From contig NZ_FOTS01000034.1 of assembly GCF_900114615.1 (NCBI RefSeq), positions 1 through 56,051 of the forward strand: 56,051 nucleotides of DNA, in the 5' to 3' direction. The stretch's first letter is position 1. The number at the start of each line of letters is the position of its first letter. Position numbers and translations under genes: made by a program. Of this stretch, positions 2,503 to 19,531 are shown piece by piece. This DNA comes from Pelosinus propionicus DSM 13327 (lineage in GTDB: Bacteria; Bacillota; Negativicutes; DSM-13327). A model generated the notes under the pieces. That model searched no databases and was not told the DNA's origin. It worked only from the letters and a program-made list of their open reading frames with translations.

Positions 2503-2946
2503 ATGTTAAAGGACTTGACCAGTGAGAAGCTGATTCGCCTGAACATTGATGCGAAAGATTGGGAAGACGCAATCCGCCAAGCAGCAGATGCCTTGCTGCA
2601 GAATGGAAAGATAAAGTCATCGTATATTGATGCAATCATAAAAACGGCTAAAGAGGGCGGGCCTTATTTCGTTCTTACGAAACATGTTGCTTTACCTCAT
2701 GCTCGGCCAGAGGCCGGGGCAATTGAAAGTGCTATCGGTATTGCAACATTAAAAAAGCCGATTGTATTTGGAAATAAAGAAAATGATCCAGTAAAATATT
2801 TATTTTGTTTGAGTGCTCAGGATAGTGAGAGTCACATCAATGCTTTAGCAGATTTGACAGGACTGTTGGAAAGTAAAAATTTTTACAAGTTCTTGGATCA
2901 AGCGAAAGATGCGTCTGAGGTAATGCAATATATTGAAAATATATAG
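2503..2946 (+). CDS. PTS EIIA component, mannitol/ascorbate type
   Basis: 147 residues, the normal size for a free-standing EIIA type 2 (UlaC/SgaA-like) protein. The phosphoryl-accepting His66 sits in the motif ALPHARPE. It would take phosphate from HPr and pass it to the EIIB protein encoded 17 bp downstream. It lies 22 bp behind the regulator, most likely in one transcript with it. The substrate cannot be told from this subunit. Confidence 0.88.
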   Translation: MLKDLTSEKLIRLNIDAKDWEDAIRQAADALLQNGKIKSSYIDAIIKTAKEGGPYFVLTKHVALPHARPEAGAIESAIGIATLKKPIVFGNKENDPVKYLFCLSAQDSESHINALADLTGLLESKNFYKFLDQAKDASEVMQYIENI

Positions 2947-2963
2947 AAAAGGGGTATAGAAAA

Positions 2964-3251
2964 ATGGAATTTAAAGGATTAGTTGCTTGTCGTGCAGGTG
3001 TAGGATCAAGTTTGATGCTAAATATCAAACTTAAACAGGTGATTAGCGAAAATAAGCTTCCCATCAAGGTTGAACATGGTTCGTTAGATTCAGTTGCAGG
3101 TTTTACTGGAGCTTTAATTATTACGTTGAGCGATGTTGCTAAAGAATTGGAATCCAAAAAGTTGCCGCAGAAAATTATTGGCATCGACAACATTATGAAC
3201 AAGGGGGAAATTCTGACGAAATTAAATGCTTTTCTTGCTGAAGCCAAGTAA
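2964..3251 (+). CDS. PTS EIIB component, ascorbate/galactitol type
   Basis: 95 residues with the phosphocysteine loop CRAGVGSS near the N-terminus (Cys9), as in UlaB/GatB-like EIIB proteins. It passes phosphate from EIIA to the incoming substrate at the EIIC channel. The start ATG is preceded by AAAGGGG. It is separated from the EIIC gene by about 400 bp, which is unusual for an otherwise tight PTS operon. Confidence 0.88.
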   Translation: MEFKGLVACRAGVGSSLMLNIKLKQVISENKLPIKVEHGSLDSVAGFTGALIITLSDVAKELESKKLPQKIIGIDNIMNKGEILTKLNAFLAEAK

Positions 3252-3649
3252 AACAAGATGCGACAGATGACAATTGTAGATAGGCTGCTCCTATGTTAAA
3301 ACGGATTAAAATCGTAACGCGTGATGTCAGTCTGACATAGGAGTGATGCTTTTAAACATCATGAAAGCATGAAAAAACCTCCCGTAATAAAATGATATTG
3401 GGGCCTTACGCCAATATCAAAACAGGAGGCATTTCCAATGTACAGTTTCAGTCTAGCATATGAAAAATAAAAATGCCAGTATTATACAATTGATATTTCA
3501 AAATACAAGAAATTGCTGCTATGTATTCTGCTAAAATCGACAATATCAGAATTTATGGAATATTTTTTTAATAACAATGCACTGATAGATGATAAGCATC
3601 GAAAATAGGAACATGACAAAATATTTCTTACATATAGGAGGCAGAAATT
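3252..3649 (+). other. Long intercistronic region with two hairpins and a mini-ORF
   Basis: The 398-bp gap splits EIIB from EIIC. It holds a hairpin with arms CTCCTATGT (3288-3296) and ACATAGGAG (3335-3343), then a nested structure. In that structure CCTCC (3378-3382) can pair with the Shine-Dalgarno GGAGG (3425-3429) around an inner stem GATATTGG/CCAATATC (3394-3401, 3411-3418). An 11-codon frame (3438-3470, MYSFSLAYEK) follows that Shine-Dalgarno at ideal distance. The rest is AT-rich with no further gene. It could be a regulatory leader or the scar of a lost insertion sequence. Confidence 0.45.
3438..3470 (+). CDS. Possible leader peptide or truncated gene start, 10 aa
   Basis: ATG at 3438 follows CAGGAGG with 8 bases between, one of the best ribosome binding sites in the window, yet the frame stops after ten codons (MYSFSLAYEK). 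The Shine-Dalgarno can be masked by CCTCC 43 bases upstream. It may be a leader peptide, or the beginning of a transposase-like gene whose body is lost. I do not recognise the sequence. Confidence 0.25.
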   Translation: MYSFSLAYEK

Positions 3650-4912
3650 ATGGATTTTATAGTTAGTTTATTGAGTAATCCGGCTGTGCTGCTAGGTTTA
3701 GTTGCTTTTGTTGGATTGCTGGCGCAGAAAAAAACGGGAACAGAAATTATAACTGGGGCATCAAAAACGGCGATCGGTTTTTTGGTATTTGGTATTGGGG
3801 CTGGAACGATGACAGGAGCATTAAAAAATTTTAATACGATGTTCCAATCTGGTTTCCATATTTCGGGAGTTATTACATCTCCGGAAGCTGCTACCGCTTT
3901 AGCGCAGAGCAAATATGGATTTGTAACTTCATCGATTTTAATTGTAGGTTTTATTATGAATCTTGTATTTGCACGTGTTACGAAGTTTAAAAATGTGTTT
4001 TTCACAGGAGGACACAGCTTGTTTTTCGCTTGTGTATTGGGGCTGATTCTAAAATTCCATGGTTTCAATGATGGCATGGCAATTGTTACAGGAGGCACCA
4101 TTTTAGGATTCTTTTCGGCATTTTTGCCACAGCTTTGTCAGCCGTTTATGCGTAAATTGACTGGTAATGATGATCAAGCTATTGGTCATTTCAACATGCT
4201 TGGTTATGCTTTATCAGGTTATATCGGCAAGTTACTTTTTTCAAAGTGGGGTGATAAAACCACAGAAGATATCAGTTTCCCTGCTTGGTTATCTTTCTTC
4301 CGCGATTTTTTGATGGGCTGCGCATTTGTTATGACATTATTGTTCTATGTTTCGGCTTTGGCCGCAGGGGAGGATGCTGTTGCGAAGCTGGCTGGATCGA
4401 CCCATTGGTTGGTATTCCCTCTCTTACAAGCATTTCAGTTTACGGCTGGTATGTCCGTATTAATGACAGGGGTACGTATGTTCTTAGGAGAAATCACGGC
4501 AGCATTTGTTGCTATTTCTGAAAAGTTTATTCCTGGGTCTCGTCCGGCATTGGATGTACCGACTGTATTTCCATATGCACCGACTGCCGTTATCGTTGGA
4601 TTTCTTTGCTCTTATGCAGCAGGCTTATTTGCTATTGTAGTCATGGTTGTTTTTAATTTCTCGGTGATCATTATTCCGGCAGCACATATCCACTTCTTTT
4701 CCGGCGGTACTGCAGGGGTGTTTGGGAATTCCTTCGGCGGCTGGCGAGGCGCTGTGGCAGGTTCCTTTACCGTCGGTTTACTACTAGCGTTTTTACCATG
4801 CGTATTGTATCCGCTCTATGGAGAAATGGGTGTGCTTGGTTCAACGTTCCCAAATGTTGATTATAATATTGTTGGAATGATTCTCAATAGCGTATTACGA
4901 ATTTTTAACTAG
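3650..4912 (+). CDS. PTS EIIC permease, ascorbate (UlaA/SgaT) family
   Basis: A 420-residue hydrophobic protein with about ten membrane segments. Segments such as FTGGHSLFFACVLG and HFFSGGTAGVFGNSFGG are typical of the UlaA/SgaT family of PTS channels. It would import and phosphorylate a carbohydrate together with the EIIA and EIIB proteins encoded upstream. The start has AGGAGGCAG in front. The ascorbate genes ulaD, ulaE and ulaF are absent nearby; an SIS isomerase and a DapA-like aldolase follow instead, so the substrate is probably not ascorbate. Confidence 0.9.
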   Translation: MDFIVSLLSNPAVLLGLVAFVGLLAQKKTGTEIITGASKTAIGFLVFGIGAGTMTGALKNFNTMFQSGFHISGVITSPEAATALAQSKYGFVTSSILIVGFIMNLVFARVTKFKNVFFTGGHSLFFACVLGLILKFHGFNDGMAIVTGGTILGFFSAFLPQLCQPFMRKLTGNDDQAIGHFNMLGYALSGYIGKLLFSKWGDKTTEDISFPAWLSFFRDFLMGCAFVMTLLFYVSALAAGEDAVAKLAGSTHWLVFPLLQAFQFTAGMSVLMTGVRMFLGEITAAFVAISEKFIPGSRPALDVPTVFPYAPTAVIVGFLCSYAAGLFAIVVMVVFNFSVIIIPAAHIHFFSGGTAGVFGNSFGGWRGAVAGSFTVGLLLAFLPCVLYPLYGEMGVLGSTFPNVDYNIVGMILNSVLRIFN

Positions 4913-6616: not shown

Positions 6617-6645
6617 TTGACAATGATTTTCATTATCCTTATAAT
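6617..6645 (+). promoter_or_regulatory. Promoter with overlapping Fur box
   Basis: TTGACA (6617-6622), a 17-bp spacer and TATAAT (6640-6645) form a consensus sigma-A promoter. The 19-bp stretch 6619-6637 matches the Fur consensus GATAATGATAATCATTATC at 16 positions and covers the -35 element and spacer. It should repress the downstream TonB-C gene when iron is plentiful. Confidence 0.7.
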
Positions 6646-6719: not shown

Positions 6720-7136
6720 GTGAAAAAACTGCAATTGATTATGGTACTTATGTTATTATTGACAACAGGGATGTCAGTGTCTGCTTTAGCTAAGGAGAAA
6801 CCTCAAATGACTCCTCCCCAGATTATTACGCTGGCGGCAATTTCTTTGCCTCAAGATGTGAAAGAAAAGTTTGCTGAGCAAACCGTGTCTGTAAAGGTAA
6901 AGGCAACGATATCGGTATCTGGATCGATAGATGGTGATGTACAGATTATTACCAGTTCTGGAGATGCTGCTTTTGATGCTGCCGTGATGGAATCGATTCA
7001 GAGGTCGGTATTTACTCCTGCATATAGTGATACTACAGCCGTGTCATCTTCTATTATTCTTCCCTTGCATGTTAAGGTAGAAAAAAGCATACCAGAAGAA
7101 CAGGCAAATGGTGAAGTGCAGTCAGCTGCAGAATAG
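6720..7136 (+). CDS. Secreted TonB C-terminal-domain-like protein
   Basis: 138 residues. A signal peptide (KKLQLIMVLMLLLTTGMSVSALA) is followed by a TonB_C-like domain: about 45-125 with VSVKVKATISVSGSIDGDV and DAAVMESIQRSVFTPA. It lacks the N-terminal membrane anchor plus proline-rich linker of a true TonB and is probably exported to the periplasm. GTG start with AAAGAGG nine bases upstream. The Fur-box promoter upstream points to a role in iron supply. It stands alone between two terminators. Confidence 0.75.
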   Translation: MKKLQLIMVLMLLLTTGMSVSALAKEKPQMTPPQIITLAAISLPQDVKEKFAEQTVSVKVKATISVSGSIDGDVQIITSSGDAAFDAAVMESIQRSVFTPAYSDTTAVSSSIILPLHVKVEKSIPEEQANGEVQSAAE

Positions 7137-10839: not shown

Positions 10840-10932
10840 TGATAATGTAGTATCGAATGAATCCTTAATTAAAAATACATAAAGCTTTCATACTACGGGA
10901 AAATTAGAATAAGTGCGAGGAGGTGTAATGTG

Positions 10933-11310
10933 ATGAATTTATTAAAATTTGGTGCGAAGATGTTTAGTAAGAACTCTTTTTGGTTATTGTTAGCTGGTGG
11001 TGCTGCTTTGGCGTTATTGTCAGATCGCCGTCATCTACGGTCTAGTGCAGTAAAGGTGACGAAAAAGGCTTTAATTGCCAAGGACGAAGTGAGAAATGCA
11101 GCAGCAAAAGTGAGTGCTAAAGCTTCTGATTTCATAGAAGAAGCACGTCAAAAGAGAGGTACTTCTTCTTGTCGCGGCGGCGCGACAAGAGAAAAAGGGC
11201 ATCGGATAGCCGTTGCTACGACAGCCAAGATATTGACATTCAAAGAGGCGGCACAAGCGGAATTTAAAAGTATTGTAGATGAGGCGAAAAGACGTCGTGC
11301 CATTCGCTAA
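10933..11310 (+). CDS. Small membrane-anchored helical protein of the ATPase cluster
   Basis: 125 residues. One hydrophobic segment near the N-terminus (FWLLLAGGAALALLS) is followed by a basic, alanine-rich amphipathic helix (HLRSSAVKVTKKALIAKDEV, then AAAKVSAKASDFIEEARQKR) and a second charged helix at the C-terminus. This resembles YtxH-like or DUF5132-like proteins. The same order, membrane segment then R-x-x-LR-x-x-AVK helix, occurs in the protein encoded at 13407-14039. I chose ATG 10933, seven bases behind GAGGAGGTG; GTG 10930 is the alternative. Function unknown; placement suggests a structural membrane role in the ATPase cluster. Confidence 0.7.
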   Translation: MNLLKFGAKMFSKNSFWLLLAGGAALALLSDRRHLRSSAVKVTKKALIAKDEVRNAAAKVSAKASDFIEEARQKRGTSSCRGGATREKGHRIAVATTAKILTFKEAAQAEFKSIVDEAKRRRAIR

Positions 11311-11420: not shown

Positions 11421-12980
11421 TTATTGTGTTTTTATACTACTAGCGGTTGAAAATGCTTTCTTATCGAACAATGAGCAATTTGAATTCATAACGATTGCCA
11501 GCGTACCGATATTCAGCAGTAATCCTGCAGTTATTGGCGTAATGAAGGAAGTGGCAGCTAGCGCCACACCGGCTATATTGAAGGCCGCAGCAAAGGATAT
11601 GTTTTGGCGGATAACCTTATTCATATACCTGCTAAGATAGATGGCTTCAGCTACTTTTCGAGGATCATCATTAGCAATGACGATATCAGCAGTGTCAATT
11701 GCCTGCGCTGTTCCTTTTCTGCCCATCGCTATGGCAACATCGCTGGCAGCAAAAGCGCGAGAGTCATTTGTCCCGTCTCCGATCATAACAATCTTCTTTC
11801 CTAGGGATTGCAAATCGTTAATTGTTTTTACTATATCGTCAGGGGGCATAGCATGCCGGTTAGCACTACGATCACCCTTTATCACACGAACATCCTTGAT
11901 ACCTAAAGAATGCAGCTGGTCTATTCCTGTATAGCATTCATGTTCAAATAACACGGTATCAGCATCTCCTAGGTGTTCTAAAGCTCCAATCTGCTTTATA
12001 TAAATTCCTCTCTCGGCTGCTTGTCTGACAGCAGAATGTCTTGCTGCTTCTTTGGATAAGGAAATCGCAGCGGGGCACCCGGCAAGTAATATCGCGAGGC
12101 TTCGCATAAAGTTCCTAGTAAGAAGAAAGCTAATTCCTGAAACAGCGAAGGAATACCATATCATTCTTTCAGTCAATAAAGAGGATAAAGATTCTTTTTC
12201 TTTGTAATGCAGCAGTTTTTTTGCTGCAATCTGGTTACAATCAGAAAGCAGCTCATTTTCATGTACGGAGGTGGTGTTTTCTGCTTCTTTCTCTTTTTTT
12301 AGTGCTTGCAATTGCTTTCTCATTAGAAGATTCGAGATGCTTTTATGGGAATTTTCCTGCGCTGTTGTGCCAAGTAAGTAGGTTAATTGGACTAGCCAGA
12401 GCACAGACAACCCTGTAATGCTTTCTCGTATGGTAAGCAGTAGTAAGGTAGGCAGAAACAAAAGAAATTCATAGTTCATATTGTGTTTCTTTGCGGCAGT
12501 TTCAAAATGATTACGTAAGAGGGGGTAGCCGGCCATTAAAGTTGCAAGAGCAGCAAACGTGAAAATTTGTGGGGAAGAAGACCTTAGCGATTTCCCTGAA
12601 AAAAAGCGTTTGGCGATTAGTCCAACTAGAATAATACCGGTTGTTACGGCATAGGTCCCTGGTGATTTGATAAGCTCCGGGGAAAGATTACAACCCATTT
12701 TTACGCTCTTATGGATAGCAGACTTTTCGATTGAATAGCGCTGTTCTATTACTGAAATCAATGACTGAATTTCGGCGAGGCAAATATAAGTTGGATGAAA
12801 ATGAATGAGAGCTCGGCCTGTTAGTGGATTTGCTGTCACGGAATAAATAAATTTTTCTTTTACTAATTTTGTTGTTATATAGTGAGCAAAAGCCGGATTT
12901 TGCAAAAGTGATTTGATGGATATTCGTAATCGTCCTGACAATAAATTGTATTGGTTCGTTGTAAGATTAGCTGCTGTCAA
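11421..12980 (-). CDS. Degenerate P-type ATPase lacking the phosphorylation site
   Basis: About 519 residues, homologous along most of its length to the complete ATPase at 15052-17274, but catalytic parts are gone. Kept: an N-terminal GRLRI domain, several membrane segments, the membrane cysteine (Cys302, GCPAA instead of CPC), the hinge motif GDGTNDS (401-407) and the C-terminal membrane pair (NIGTLAIVMNSN). Lost: the A-domain TGE, the DKTGT motif (FEHEC at 345-349, Glu in place of Asp) and the whole N domain; only 55 residues separate the two P-domain motifs against about 200 in the active enzyme. I chose TTG 12980 because AAAGGAGG lies 10 bases upstream and it matches the partner's N-terminus; GTG 13142 would add 54 residues. 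The frame is intact, so selection for a non-catalytic role is likely. Confidence 0.85.
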   Translation of the reverse strand: MTAANLTTNQYNLLSGRLRISIKSLLQNPAFAHYITTKLVKEKFIYSVTANPLTGRALIHFHPTYICLAEIQSLISVIEQRYSIEKSAIHKSVKMGCNLSPELIKSPGTYAVTTGIILVGLIAKRFFSGKSLRSSSPQIFTFAALATLMAGYPLLRNHFETAAKKHNMNYEFLLFLPTLLLLTIRESITGLSVLWLVQLTYLLGTTAQENSHKSISNLLMRKQLQALKKEKEAENTTSVHENELLSDCNQIAAKKLLHYKEKESLSSLLTERMIWYSFAVSGISFLLTRNFMRSLAILLAGCPAAISLSKEAARHSAVRQAAERGIYIKQIGALEHLGDADTVLFEHECYTGIDQLHSLGIKDVRVIKGDRSANRHAMPPDDIVKTINDLQSLGKKIVMIGDGTNDSRAFAASDVAIAMGRKGTAQAIDTADIVIANDDPRKVAEAIYLSRYMNKVIRQNISFAAAFNIAGVALAATSFITPITAGLLLNIGTLAIVMNSNCSLFDKKAFSTASSIKTQ

Positions 12981-13148
12981 TGAAAAGTATCCTCCTTTGT
13001 GCTTACAATACTCTTTGGAAAACAACCAGGTATAGCCATTAATAGAAAAAGGAAGCTGAGACGCAGACCTCGAGATACGATCTACAGTAATGAAAGCAAC
13101 AACAGCAAGGAATGATTCCCTGCTGCTAATGTAAATCTGCACTGCTGG

Positions 13149-13385
13149 CTAAAAAAGCTTTAAACGCGCCCAGGAGATACCAGCAAGCAGATTGTCTTTT
13201 GATTCTTTACTTCTTTTTTTAATATAACCAAAAAACTGTCCCAAGAATTCTTCCCAAATGCGAATTACCTCTCCCTTTATTTCTGGTGAGTGATGTCTAA
13301 GTTCAATACTCATATCAATTGCTTCATGCAGTTCACGATTTGCATTTGTAATCTTCTGGCGTAACATTTCAATTGTAATAGCCAC
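13149..13385 (-). CDS. Small helical protein of unknown function
   Basis: 78 residues, predicted all-helical, no membrane segment: MAITIEMLRQKITNANRELH at the start and a basic C-terminal stretch (KKRSKESKDNLLAG). GTG start with AGGAGG five bases upstream, a strong site. It is the middle gene of the three-gene minus-strand run 14039-11421, 21 bp behind the upstream gene and a short gap before the degenerate ATPase. I do not recognise a family. Confidence 0.65.
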   Translation of the reverse strand: MAITIEMLRQKITNANRELHEAIDMSIELRHHSPEIKGEVIRIWEEFLGQFFGYIKKRSKESKDNLLAGISWARLKLF

Positions 13386-13406: not shown

Positions 13407-14039
13407 TTAGCTAGGATCGGTCTTAGTAGTATCGAATGTTTCTTCACTAGCGTCTTCTAGATTATCATCAACTTCATCAAGTGAGTCTTTAAAACGTTCA
13501 AATTGAGCTTCGCTTACCAAATCTTCAATGTCTTCCCGTACACCGCTGAAAACTCCCTGTGCCTGTTCTGTTAATCCGATTACACCCTGTACCGCTTTTA
13601 CAGCTAAGGGGCGAAGTTTTTCTCTAACACTTGGCATCAAAGCGGCTGCGACGACAATGGCTCCTATCCAAAAGGTTACATTATGTCCAGTACGCATTTT
13701 AACTTCATGATTAAAGCAGCGTTTTCTTCTAGTTAAGCCATTCATTCCCGGGCCTGTTTCTACTAAATCTGTTAGTTCTGCTAATTCCAGCAGTTCCTTA
13801 CGTTCTTTGCGGATCATCTGCAGTAATGCTTTACGTGCATAGGGATCGGTAACTGTGTTTAATTTCTGTTCATATATACGTATGGCGGCTAATTTGGCTT
13901 CAAAAACCTGTTCAAGCCCTAAGGTCGTGTCCTCACAGCAAGTTTCCATAGCCCGCGCACGCAGGAGCTGCCCTCTGCTTTGTTTTACTTTAGATTTTAG
14001 CTCATATTCATTATAGGATCCTGTTTCGATATCGGACAT
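13407..14039 (-). CDS. Membrane protein with ferritin-like helical N-part and amphipathic tail
   Basis: 210 residues. The N-terminal half is helical (EAKLAAIRIYEQKLNTVTD, then ARKALLQMIRKERKELLEL), reminiscent of one helix pair of a ferritin-like domain, but lacking a clear ExxH pair. A single membrane segment (TFWIGAIVVAAALM, about 120-135) is followed by REKLRPLAVKAVQGVIGL and an acidic tail. The segment after the membrane helix resembles the protein at 10933-11310 and DUF5132/YtxH-like proteins. Start ATG with AAAGGTAGGG upstream. First gene of the minus-strand run, divergent from the Fur-box promoter. Confidence 0.65.
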   Translation of the reverse strand: MSDIETGSYNEYELKSKVKQSRGQLLRARAMETCCEDTTLGLEQVFEAKLAAIRIYEQKLNTVTDPYARKALLQMIRKERKELLELAELTDLVETGPGMNGLTRRKRCFNHEVKMRTGHNVTFWIGAIVVAAALMPSVREKLRPLAVKAVQGVIGLTEQAQGVFSGVREDIEDLVSEAQFERFKDSLDEVDDNLEDASEETFDTTKTDPS

Positions 14040-14143: not shown

Positions 14144-14202
14144 TTGACGGTGCATAATTTTCTATAGTATAATCAATAATAGTGATAATGATAATTGCTA
14201 TC
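14144..14202 (+). promoter_or_regulatory. Promoter and Fur box of the ATPase cluster
   Basis: TTGACG (14144-14149), an 18-bp spacer and TATAAT (14168-14173) form a promoter. Right behind it, GATAATGATAATTGCTATC (14184-14202) matches the 19-bp Fur consensus at 16 positions and would cover the transcription start region. The site also lies in the region shared with the divergent genes, so both directions may be iron-controlled. Confidence 0.75.
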
Positions 14203-14217
14203 ATCAGGAGGCGGATT

Positions 14218-14850
14218 ATGCCTATGTCAATATATATAAAACCAATTGAAGCATTGCAGCTTGAATGTATAAATGATATACGAGGGGAATTCTGTCAAAT
14301 ACGTTCCCAAATTTCTTCTTTAGAAATTCATACGTTAGCGGATTCTTTGTTTTGCCAAAGCTCTCTTGCGTGGCCTGCAATTTTACTGGAACTGCAAAAA
14401 GGAAGAATTTTAGATCGCCTTCTGAATAAGCTGAATGAAAAAGTGAAGGCTCATGGTTTTTCTTATGAGAGAAATTTAGCATTAAGAGGACCTTTTCCTG
14501 CTCTTTCTCTGAAATCCTTGCTGCCTGTAGTTCAAGAACATCGCTCTACATTGCGTGCTACTCGCTGTGTTGAATTCTTGGGCAATAAAGCGTGCAGCTA
14601 TTCTTTGAAATCGGTCACAAAAGGTATATTTCCTTTTCAGGTGGATGTAGCAACATTGGCCATGGAGACATTAGGTTGTTCCAGCAAACAGCAAATGAAA
14701 CAAGCAATGCTTGATCTTTCTGAACGTATCAAAGGACGTATTCTCAACTTTCTCTATGATTGGGAGAAATTAATCATTAAGCAAATTAGTGAACAGCTGA
14801 TAACCATTAAGCAAAATTCCTACTTGTTGCTTACGGAAGCAGCTGTATAA
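14218..14850 (+). CDS. Unknown helical protein, Fur-controlled
   Basis: 210 residues starting MPMSIYIKPIEALQ. Predicted mostly helical, with seven scattered cysteines and no clear membrane segment or signal peptide; no domain recognised. The start ATG 14218 is fixed by AGGAGG six bases upstream; a longer frame from GTG 14182 would start inside the Fur box and is unlikely. It is the first gene behind the Fur-box promoter and precedes the active P-type ATPase, separated from it by an attenuator-like region. Probably an accessory protein of the ATPase system; function unknown. Confidence 0.7.
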   Translation: MPMSIYIKPIEALQLECINDIRGEFCQIRSQISSLEIHTLADSLFCQSSLAWPAILLELQKGRILDRLLNKLNEKVKAHGFSYERNLALRGPFPALSLKSLLPVVQEHRSTLRATRCVEFLGNKACSYSLKSVTKGIFPFQVDVATLAMETLGCSSKQQMKQAMLDLSERIKGRILNFLYDWEKLIIKQISEQLITIKQNSYLLLTEAAV

Positions 14851-15051: not shown

Positions 15052-17274
15052 TTGGCTGCAGCATGTCTAAAAATTGTTCACAAAATACCTGGGCGGATTC
15101 GTATCTATTATCCTAGAATAAAACAGAATCCTAAGTTTGCTATACAGCTTGAAGTACTTTTAAGGAAGCAAAAAGGGATTCAGGAATGCAGCGCAAATCC
15201 TAAGTCGGGTAAGATATTGATCCAATATAATAGGGCTATAATTGCTGAAGACATAGTATGGTCCTTCTTGCAGCAGCACACAAAACAGACCTCTGGGCAC
15301 CAGAGTTTCAAACGGCAGAAGGTAAAGCCTTTTGAAGTAGAGGATGTGCCTATTCCAACTCAAATTGCTTTAGTGGCTATTGGCGGTTTAACACTGCTTT
15401 ATCATCTGTTTCGTTATCTGTTTCGCCTAGGGCCTCTTTCTGCCAATTTTTTGAGTCTAACTAGTTTGGCAACACTAATTACCTCTTTTCCCATATTGCG
15501 CAGTGGTATCGAAAATCTATTTTTACGCCGAATTTTAAATAATGAGATTTTGATAGGAACGGCTATTATTCTCTCTGTATTGCTAAAGGAAGGTGCTACG
15601 GGCTTAGTAGTTGTGTGGCTGGTGAATCTTAGTACATTAATCGAAACTCTTACCTTGGATCGATCACGCCGTACCATTCGGAGTATGCTGGAAGGCAGTC
15701 AAAAAGATGCCTGGATTGTTGTGAATGGTCAAGAAGTCATCATCCCTATTTCGCAGCTAAAGCAAGAAGATCTTGTATCCATAAAACTTGGCAGTAAAAT
15801 TCCCGTTGACGGAACTGTTATGAATGGCGAAGCGATAGTCAATCAAGCGGCGTTGACTGGAGAGCCTCTGCCTGTGCATAAGCAAGTTGGTGATAAGGTA
15901 TTAGCAGGTTCCACAATTGAACAGGGGACCCTATATGTTAAAGCTGAGCAAGTGGGGGATCAAACATCCGTTGCCCGTGTGATACATCTTGTAGAGCAAG
16001 CGACTCATTCAAAAGCTCCCATACAAAAGATGGCAGATGCCTATTCGGCACGTCTCATTCCAAGCTCTTTTCTTTTGGCTTTACTGATGTTTCTGCTAAC
16101 AGGAGATATTAGAAGAACCATGACGATTTTGATTGTTGCCTGCCCTTGTGCAGCTGGATTGGCAACGCCTACAGCTCTTAGCGCAGCGATTGGGAATGCT
16201 GCCAGCCGGGGAATTTTAGTAAAGGGTGGTCGATATCTAGAAGAGGCAGGTAAAATAAATTATTTACTATTTGATAAAACGGGTACGCTGACAAAAGGAA
16301 AACCAACTGTTGCGAATGTCATCCCGATTCATAAAGGTTATGATTGCAAATCTATTTTAGCCATAGCTGCTGGGGCAGAAGCGAATGCAAATCATCCACT
16401 GGCGAGTGCAATAAAGGAAGCTGCAAAAGAACAAGGGATTCAATTATCCTGTATTCCTGACAGTGAAATGACAATTGGCCGTGGTGTGAAGGCCACGATT
16501 GATGGAATGATTGTTCACGTTGGCAATTCTTCATATTTAAGCCAGGTGGGTATAAAGATTCCTTCATGCAATCCTTTTACAATGCAGAACAAGAATGAAA
16601 GTGCAACGTTAGTATACATAGCTGGTAACATGGCGCTTATTGGAGTGATTGTAATCGTAGATTCCCTTCGTGCAAATGCAGAGAAAGCAATCCGCAGTAT
16701 TAGAGAAGAAGGGCTTACGAATATTGGAATTATGTCAGGAGATGCAGATACAGGGGTAAAAGAGATTTCCAATCTTTTAAGAGTGGAAAAATTCTGGGCC
16801 AATATGCTCCCGCAGGATAAGTTTAATATCATAAAATCCTTTCAGGAAGAAGGCTATGTAGTCGGGATGGTCGGGGATGGAATTAATGATTCCCCATCTT
16901 TAGCTCTTGCCAATGTTGGCATTGCGATGGGGATCGGCGGGGCAGACGCAGCAATTGAGACCGCTGGTATTGTTTTGCGAGAAGATAATCCAGAGAAAAT
17001 TGTGGAAATCATTCGTCTTGGTAAGAAGTCCTTACAAATCATCAGGCAGAACTTTCTTTTTGCTATTGGGGCGAATATCATAGGATTAGGGCTGGGTTCC
17101 GCGAAATTAATTTCACCATTAATAGCAGCTGTTTTGCACAATGCTAGTACCCTGGCAGTTGTAATGAACTCTACACGACTTCTGTCTTACTCTCCCCAGC
17201 AACCTAGCGAGGAGGCTGTCCCTTGTTCCAGCGATCAGAAAAGGTATGAACTGCTCTATAAGAAAGAATTATAA
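15052..17274 (+). CDS. Heavy-metal P1B-type ATPase with GR-I-R N-terminal domain (P1B-6/FezB-like)
   Basis: About 740 residues. An N-terminal HMA-like domain without CxxC but with PGRIRIYYPRIKQNP leads into membrane segments, the A-domain TGE (269-271), the membrane metal motif CPC (364-366), phosphorylated Asp408 in DKTGTLTKG, His448 of the N-domain HP motif, hinge GDGINDS (608-614) and the last membrane pair. All catalytic parts are present. GR-I-R domains of this kind are, from memory, found on P1B-6 ATPases of ferrosome clusters. TTG 15052 follows AAAGGGGGA; TTG 15019 is an upstream alternative. It probably pumps a transition metal, most likely iron given the Fur box upstream, across the cytoplasmic or an internal membrane. 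Confidence 0.88.
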   Translation: MAAACLKIVHKIPGRIRIYYPRIKQNPKFAIQLEVLLRKQKGIQECSANPKSGKILIQYNRAIIAEDIVWSFLQQHTKQTSGHQSFKRQKVKPFEVEDVPIPTQIALVAIGGLTLLYHLFRYLFRLGPLSANFLSLTSLATLITSFPILRSGIENLFLRRILNNEILIGTAIILSVLLKEGATGLVVVWLVNLSTLIETLTLDRSRRTIRSMLEGSQKDAWIVVNGQEVIIPISQLKQEDLVSIKLGSKIPVDGTVMNGEAIVNQAALTGEPLPVHKQVGDKVLAGSTIEQGTLYVKAEQVGDQTSVARVIHLVEQATHSKAPIQKMADAYSARLIPSSFLLALLMFLLTGDIRRTMTILIVACPCAAGLATPTALSAAIGNAASRGILVKGGRYLEEAGKINYLLFDKTGTLTKGKPTVANVIPIHKGYDCKSILAIAAGAEANANHPLASAIKEAAKEQGIQLSCIPDSEMTIGRGVKATIDGMIVHVGNSSYLSQVGIKIPSCNPFTMQNKNESATLVYIAGNMALIGVIVIVDSLRANAEKAIRSIREEGLTNIGIMSGDADTGVKEISNLLRVEKFWANMLPQDKFNIIKSFQEEGYVVGMVGDGINDSPSLALANVGIAMGIGGADAAIETAGIVLREDNPEKIVEIIRLGKKSLQIIRQNFLFAIGANIIGLGLGSAKLISPLIAAVLHNASTLAVVMNSTRLLSYSPQQPSEEAVPCSSDQKRYELLYKKEL

Positions 17275-18563: not shown

Positions 18564-19531
18564 ATGACTACATTAAATTGGGGAATTTTAGGTCCTGGAG
18601 CAATTGCTTTAGAGTTTGCAAAAGCAATCAAAGAAGTGAATGGCAGTATCTGCGCAGTAGGTGCAAGAAATCTTGAAAAAGCAAAGGCCTTTGCAAGTAT
18701 GTATCATATTGAAAAGGTCTATGGCAATTACGAAGAAATGCTGAGTGATCCTGGAATTGATGTAGTTTACATTGCAACGCCTCATAGTAGCCATTATGAC
18801 TTTATAATGAAGAGCCTTATTAATAATAAGCATGTATTTTGTGAAAAGTCTATTACAGTGAATAGCAAACAATTAAGAGAGATTGTTGCTGCTGCAGAGC
18901 AAAAGAATTTGGTGGTTGCAGAAGCTATGACTGTATATCATATGCCATTATTTAAGAAGCTGCGTCATATTGTTGACTCAGGTAAAATTGGTACACTTAA
19001 GATGATTCAGGTATCTTTTGGAAGTTGCAAAAAATACGATGTTGCCAATCGATTTTTTAGCAAAGAATTGGCAGGGGGCGCACTACTTGATATTGGGACG
19101 TATGCCTTGTCTTTTGCTAGATACTTCCTTTCCAGTCAGCCTTACGAAGTATTGACTACTGCGAAAAAGTTTGAAACAGGTGTAGATGAGCAGTCAGGTA
19201 TTCTGCTTAAAAATTCCAGGACGAAATGGCGGTAATTTCTCTAACGATGAGAGCAAAGATGCCAAAGCGCGGTGTTATAGCAGGAGAACTAGGATTTATT
19301 ATAGTTGATAATTTTCCAAGGGCATCGGAGGCTACAATACATTATCTAGATGGAAAAGTGGAAGTGATAGAAGCTGGTGAAGCAGAGAAAGCATTCGTAT
19401 ATGAAGTAGAGGATATGAATCAATGCATTTTGAACAAAGTGAAAATGGATACCGTAGAATTATCAATGGATGTCATGGAAATTATGGATGAAGTTCGAGC
19501 TCGATGGGGAATACGCTATCCCTTTGAATAA
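18564..19531 (+). pseudogene. Gfo/Idh/MocA-family oxidoreductase, frameshifted
   Basis: The first 217 codons encode a Rossmann-fold start (LNWGILGPGAIALEFAKAI) and the family motif CEKSITVN. The frame then runs into a stop at 19233-19235, while the -1 frame continues from about 19218 with the missing C-terminal part (MAVISLTMRAKMPKRGVIAG to WGIRYPFE, stop 19529-19531). Joined, the protein would be about 322 residues, the normal length. One base appears lost near 19213-19219 (TTCCAGG; TTCCCAGG would restore the frame). No slippery heptamer is present, so programmed frameshifting is unlikely. Either a recent mutation or a sequencing error. Function would be an NAD(P)-dependent dehydrogenase of sugars or dihydrodiols. 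Confidence 0.8.

Follow-up and report, generated by a model that had tools for sequence, protein, structure and literature searches.

A degenerate P1B6-like ATPase half retained as a stand-alone gene beside an intact metal pump in Pelosinus propionicus

The window analysed here, a 56,051-nt stretch of Pelosinus propionicus DSM 13327 (contig NZ_FOTS01000034.1, positions 1 to 56,051), encodes a relative of P1B-type ATPases on its minus strand at 11421-12980 (coding 11424-12980; 519 amino acids). The frame was confirmed to be open, and its TTG start at 12980, with a Shine-Dalgarno sequence (AAAGGAGG) 10 nt ahead, is kept in four Pelosinus orthologues, in agreement with the intact frame, good start and good ribosome binding site of a preliminary description made from the DNA letters alone. 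The gene stands last in an operon, after the genes for c2 and for an unannotated 78-amino-acid protein, and is divergent from an intact P1B6-like metal pump (15052-17274, plus strand). c2 (13407-14039, minus strand) is a helical membrane protein with a PacL-like C-terminal part and weak matches to DUF5132 and DUF2383; its modelled fold (pLDDT 57) was unusable. The 78-amino-acid protein (13149-13385, minus strand) has a GTG start and an AGGAGG sequence, ends in KDNLLAGISWARLKLF and matches no model in Pfam or NCBIfam. Between its gene and the pseudo-ATPase gene lies a hairpin (13100-13128, minus strand) that is nearly invariant in five genomes, has no clear T run and is a possible attenuator or processing site. 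An Rfam search of the locus for structured RNA returned just sub-threshold, implausible matches, and a search for tandem repeats returned none. Convergent with the pseudo-ATPase gene is c1 (10930-11310, plus strand), which encodes a PacL-like, probably DUF1490-related small membrane protein.

The neighbouring pump carries an HMA_2 domain, TGE, CPC, DKTGT and GDGIND motifs and a His-Asn (HN) pair in TM6, and thus has all the hallmarks of the P1B6 type (HN in TM6, CPC and the catalytic motifs). Its partner, the 208-amino-acid protein c5, is encoded at 14224-14850 (plus strand), and a Fur-box-like operator lies at the c5-pump promoter (14184-14202, plus strand; 16/19 positions, 3 mismatches). This operator recurs in four related loci with 1-3 mismatches, and 0.01 such matches are expected by chance per window. 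The start of the c2 operon is divergent from the Fur-box region both in the window and in G306, a genome of another family. The operator overlaps an apparent c5 N terminus, MIMIIAIIRRR, a stretch that is probably operator rather than coding sequence. A second Fur-box-like site, with 2 mismatches, occurs at 6619-6637, ahead of the gene at 6720-7136.

The pseudo-ATPase retains the P1B membrane helices and a P-domain core, as judged by its AlphaFold2 (AF2) model and by P1B heavy-metal ATPase models (TIGR01525), which match the membrane part and a C-terminal P-domain remnant. Its N-terminal HMA_2-like domain (amino acids 10-88; 12717-12953, minus strand) is of the PGR-x-R type, reads SGRLRI here, is folded in the model and scores 29.5 bits against Pfam PF19991, slightly under the cutoff of 30. 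The single-chain model has a pLDDT of 81 and is closest among solved structures to the P1B pumps CopA and ZntA (Z ~23); with CopA (4bbj), ZntA (4umv) and 7qbz it shares the membrane fold and P-domain core over 310-359 residues (rmsd 3.8-4.3), but unlike these it has no actuator loop, N domain or phosphorylatable Asp, and its metal site is degenerate. The motif changes of the preliminary description are all present on the minus strand: FEHEC in place of DKTGT (amino acids 345-349; 11934-11948), a deletion junction without the catalytic Asp; GCPA (301-304; 12069-12080), a degenerate TM4 metal site that lacks the second Cys of the pump's CPC; and a retained P-domain hinge motif, GDGTNDS (401-407; 11760-11780). 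The excision of the N domain also held: its two P-domain motifs are 55 residues apart versus 200 in the pump, and 18 N-domain residues align versus 147. The reported absence of TGE is correct but understates the loss, as the whole actuator loop has been replaced by a linker of ~40 residues (223-262; 12195-12314, minus strand); in the alignment, 25 residues stand where the pump has 72. The TM6 His-Asn pair of the pump is Leu-Asn. From these sequence features, the protein is predicted to be incapable of phosphorylation or metal pumping.

Full-length orthologues with 76-80% identity and identical gene order occur in 4 of 7 other Pelosinus genomes. Across the resulting five genomes, one of which is P. 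fermentans JBW45, the missing parts are identical and every copy adjoins the same HMA_2 ('GR-I-R') ATPase gene, so the losses are shared by orthologues in the setting where the preliminary description proposed to look for them. Among the five sequences, ω (dN/dS) is 0.27 (95% interval 0.22-0.33), far below 1, so the reading frame is not one in decay. The values for comparison are 0.12 for the pump, 0.05 for c2, 0.19 for c1, 0.04-0.08 for the 78-amino-acid protein and 0.10 for an MFS gene; the pseudo-ATPase thus evolves at twice the ω of the pump, indicating relaxed constraint. Membrane segments have the lowest values (0.13-0.26: 0.18 for helices 107-222, 0.26 for 263-330 and 0.13 for the last helices), followed by HMA_2 (0.28) and the P-domain remnant (0.29), and the linker at the actuator site evolves fastest (0.54). 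Purifying selection on this gene is weaker but real.

An alternative is that the gene is a relic in slow decay, dispensable since the loss of a former C-terminal half (described below), its frame surviving through a recent loss or residual constraint. The doubled ω, and the value of 0.43 between the closest pair of orthologues, would suit such a relic, as would the absence of both the N-half and c2 from the 89%-complete assembly G002 and the continuing loss of parts from related genes. An example of the latter is a second N-half copy in locus L104 (S2; 2542-4065), which has lost its first membrane helices, carries DESSI for DKTGT and is itself likely a true relic. Set against this are the upper bound of 0.33 on ω, the conserved start and Shine-Dalgarno sequence, and the finding of no frameshift or premature stop in the five Pelosinus copies or the G306 copy. 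Neutral simulation gave a mean of ~45 premature stops over the five tips, and 0 of 2,000 runs were stop-free. Slow decay is accordingly an unlikely explanation, and a non-transport role, as the preliminary description had proposed, is well supported by the orthologues and their ω. Selenocysteine insertion or readthrough at an internal TGA of the orthologues was also considered and rejected, since the TGA is a normal stop ~503 codons in.

One non-structural role would be that of a metal sensor or buffer, in which HMA_2 and the remaining Cys and His residues bind metal and pass information on metal status to the pump or to expression under Fur control. Retention of the HMA_2 fold and the position of the module, divergent from a Fur-boxed promoter, are consistent with it, but the HMA_2 domain has no CxxC metal motif, its sequence being of the PGRLRI type; C349 is unconserved (Ser in one orthologue) and the protein has no sensor output domain. 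We regard this role as rather improbable. The fourth position of GDGxNDS also varies among the orthologues.

The origin of the gene is apparent from the same slot in other genomes. In two other Pelosinus genomes and several other families of the class, the gene that separates c2 from the convergent c1 encodes a protein 1350-1790 residues long, and the order across families is c2, the 78-amino-acid gene, either the tandem pump or the pseudo-ATPase, and c1. The tandem protein (roughly 1,700 residues) consists of an N-terminal P1B6-like half with HMA_2 and a C-terminal half that is a complete PMR1/SERCA-type Ca2+-ATPase with DKTGT, GDGxND and AIPEG. The pseudo-ATPase aligns end to end with the N-half. 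In a tree built from the 490 columns of the shared core, one clade (97/87) nested among the tandem proteins unites the Pelosinus genes, five in number, with that of G306; its nearest relatives are the tandem N-halves of G316 and G323 (94/89, 100/99), and changes between the fused and stand-alone states are required at least three times. The G316 locus (pump, c5, c2, tandem protein, c1) is the locus of the window with the tandem protein intact, and G306 has a stand-alone module with the pump, in the order of the window plus one inserted TerC-family gene, and a pseudo-ATPase relative that has lost even more parts than the Pelosinus gene. The pseudo-ATPase is therefore what survives of a tandem P1B/Ca2+-ATPase, namely its P1B6-like N-terminal half. 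The preliminary description, which called it a homologue of the active pump, overlooked that, far from being a stripped copy of its neighbour, it is a tandem N-half of a kind that has degenerated recurrently across the family. Direct duplication of the neighbouring pump was rejected because the pump is the outgroup on the core tree and because of identity on the core (30% versus 48%). Descent from the fused protein of the other Pelosinus genomes (L041/L042) was rejected because the core tree groups the gene with F_L108 and F_L112.

Only the degenerate half is retained in the stand-alone Pelosinus genomes and in one other family. The C-terminal halves form a clade of their own, and no member of it was found in the stand-alone Pelosinus genomes. 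Relocation of the Ca2+ half as a split gene was examined with the two separate Ca2+-type pumps encoded elsewhere in the genome of the window, C58 and C104, which fall outside the C-half clade; the Ca2+ half was thus lost, not moved. Either pump might still substitute for the lost half as a partner in trans, in place of the P1B6 pump. The half was ancestrally tethered to a Ca2+-type pump, and G310 and G312 have adjacent genes for both, which speaks for such a partner. Their position outside the C-half clade, their distance from the locus and the equal presence of C58 in G005 and G006, which have an intact tandem protein, speak against it and make it quite improbable.

Degeneration of the N-half extends across the family. 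All 25 aligned N-halves of the class lack the second CPC Cys as well as the His of the HN pair in TM6, and just one of the 25 has a perfect TGE. DKTGT and the actuator loop have each undergone about six independent changes on the tree. Likewise, in three of the tandem proteins found in other classes of Bacillota, the N-half has lost DKTGT, CPC and GDGxND and the C-half is intact. None of 24 invariant columns over 23 sequences falls in TGE, DKTGT or GDGxND; HMA_2 and the membrane framework persist throughout. A metal site altered in all members, repeated loss of catalytic parts and a retained framework form the pattern of a non-catalytic subunit. As the framework is the best-conserved part, a passive membrane function without ATP, as a metal-permeable channel or facilitator, could also be imagined, but the missing Cys and His, taken to be metal-coordinating, are absent from every aligned N-half of the class, and we consider this function very improbable. 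G310 and G312 encode the pseudo half separately, in a gene whose end shares 13 nt with the start of an HMA_2-Ca2+-ATPase gene, an arrangement to be expected if the two subunits are co-translated. Three loci contain HMA_2 fused directly to a Ca2+-type ATPase of ~1,040 amino acids (L104, 5889-9005; L105, 10558-13677; L106, 15806-18928); in L104 and L105, a separate pseudo-ATPase gene lies ahead of the fusion gene and overlaps it.

Of the proteins encoded around the pseudo-ATPase, c1 and c2 are PacL-like. DUF1490 is the PacL scaffold family of mycobacterial platforms, which include the CtpC-PacL1 effluxosome (PMC9374683, PMC13043812). Similar to those systems, the pump next to the pseudo-ATPase carries HMA_2, CPC and HN, and c1 is probably DUF1490-like; in contrast to them, the module occurs in other organisms and has a Fur box ahead of the pump. 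DUF1490 matches were found in 9 of 12 c1 family members (best E = 1.9e-5), and the c1 of the window scores 16.4 bits, below the cutoff of 28.4. Actinobacterial pumps encoded immediately behind DUF1490 genes are among the good plasmid matches obtained with the N-half of a tandem relative. Among 380 genomes of the class, whose relatedness inflates nominal significance, the N-half occurs in 26, c2 in 26 and both in 25; c5 occurs in 8, all of which have the N-half. The 78-amino-acid protein, under strong selection, is present in its slot in most tandem-ATPase loci. G608 has c1-, c2- and 78-amino-acid-like genes around a P1B6 pump without a tandem protein, so these genes need not serve the pseudo-ATPase and are probably pump accessories. 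Few lineages show linkage to the P1B6 pump; no such pump is encoded near most tandem proteins.

The identity of the pseudo-ATPase is well supported, and its likely partner and role may be proposed from this context. By a modest degree, the reading we favour is that it serves a PacL-organised pump module as a non-catalytic membrane subunit. The Ca2+ half, actuator loop, phosphorylation site and N domain were deleted in this lineage, and purifying selection has maintained the HMA_2 domain along with the membrane framework and the compact P-domain remnant. Together with the PacL-like c1 and c2 and the 78-amino-acid protein, the pseudo-ATPase may make up a membrane platform whose effect on the active P1B6 pump, encoded divergently alongside, would be to stabilise, cluster or tune it. 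In relatives, an equivalent subunit would either be fused, and so tethered, to a Ca2+-type pump of its own or, where split, be co-translated with that pump. A broader proposal, which we hold tentatively and at somewhat less than an even chance, is that fused, split and stand-alone forms represent a recurrently evolved class of pseudo-ATPases, tandem N-halves that repeatedly lost the metal site, phosphorylation site, actuator and N domain and that serve an active P-type pump in PacL-organised platforms as its obligatory, non-catalytic subunits. Metal pumps of this class might thus have helper subunits derived from dead copies of themselves. A precedent for subunit composition is KdpFABC, where a P-type ATPase works with dedicated non-catalytic membrane subunits; those of Kdp are unrelated to P-type ATPases, whereas the accessory subunit proposed here would itself be a P-type ATPase relative.

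Kinases and proteases commonly include pseudoenzymes, but none was found described among P-type ATPases in the open literature searched. The tandem family is already known but uncharacterised. FUPA24 (TC 3.A.3.24), which includes CtpH and CtpI of Mycobacterium tuberculosis, comprises double-length proteins with their catalytic motifs in a C-terminal Ca2+-type half, and no explanation for the large N-terminal segment of CtpH and CtpI was found in the literature searched (PMC3573892, PMC10654040). The fused relatives described here share the length and layout published for CtpH and CtpI, with the double length and the active Ca2+ half. The pseudo-ATPase, at 519 amino acids, corresponds to the N-terminal half only, with the Ca2+ half lost, and is tied to the tandem N-halves of the class by the tree and by synteny. 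The family also offers a possible answer regarding the CtpH/CtpI-type N-terminal segment, which in these relatives is a degenerate P1B6 pump, and its stand-alone and split forms allow the pseudo half to be deleted or expressed with the catalytic half untouched. No mention of an inactive ATPase subunit was found in the 2026 paper on P1B6/PacL systems, and titles and abstracts of literature on Pelosinus P-type ATPases contained nothing on the pseudo-ATPase gene. The literature searched was not found to report the N-half as a P1B6 pseudo-ATPase in recurrent degeneration, or its stand-alone form beside a working pump.

We note that an oxidoreductase gene in the window, at 18564-19531, is represented by two overlapping frames (223 and 101 amino acids); its four Pelosinus orthologues are single frames of 322 amino acids, which points to a frameshift or an assembly error.
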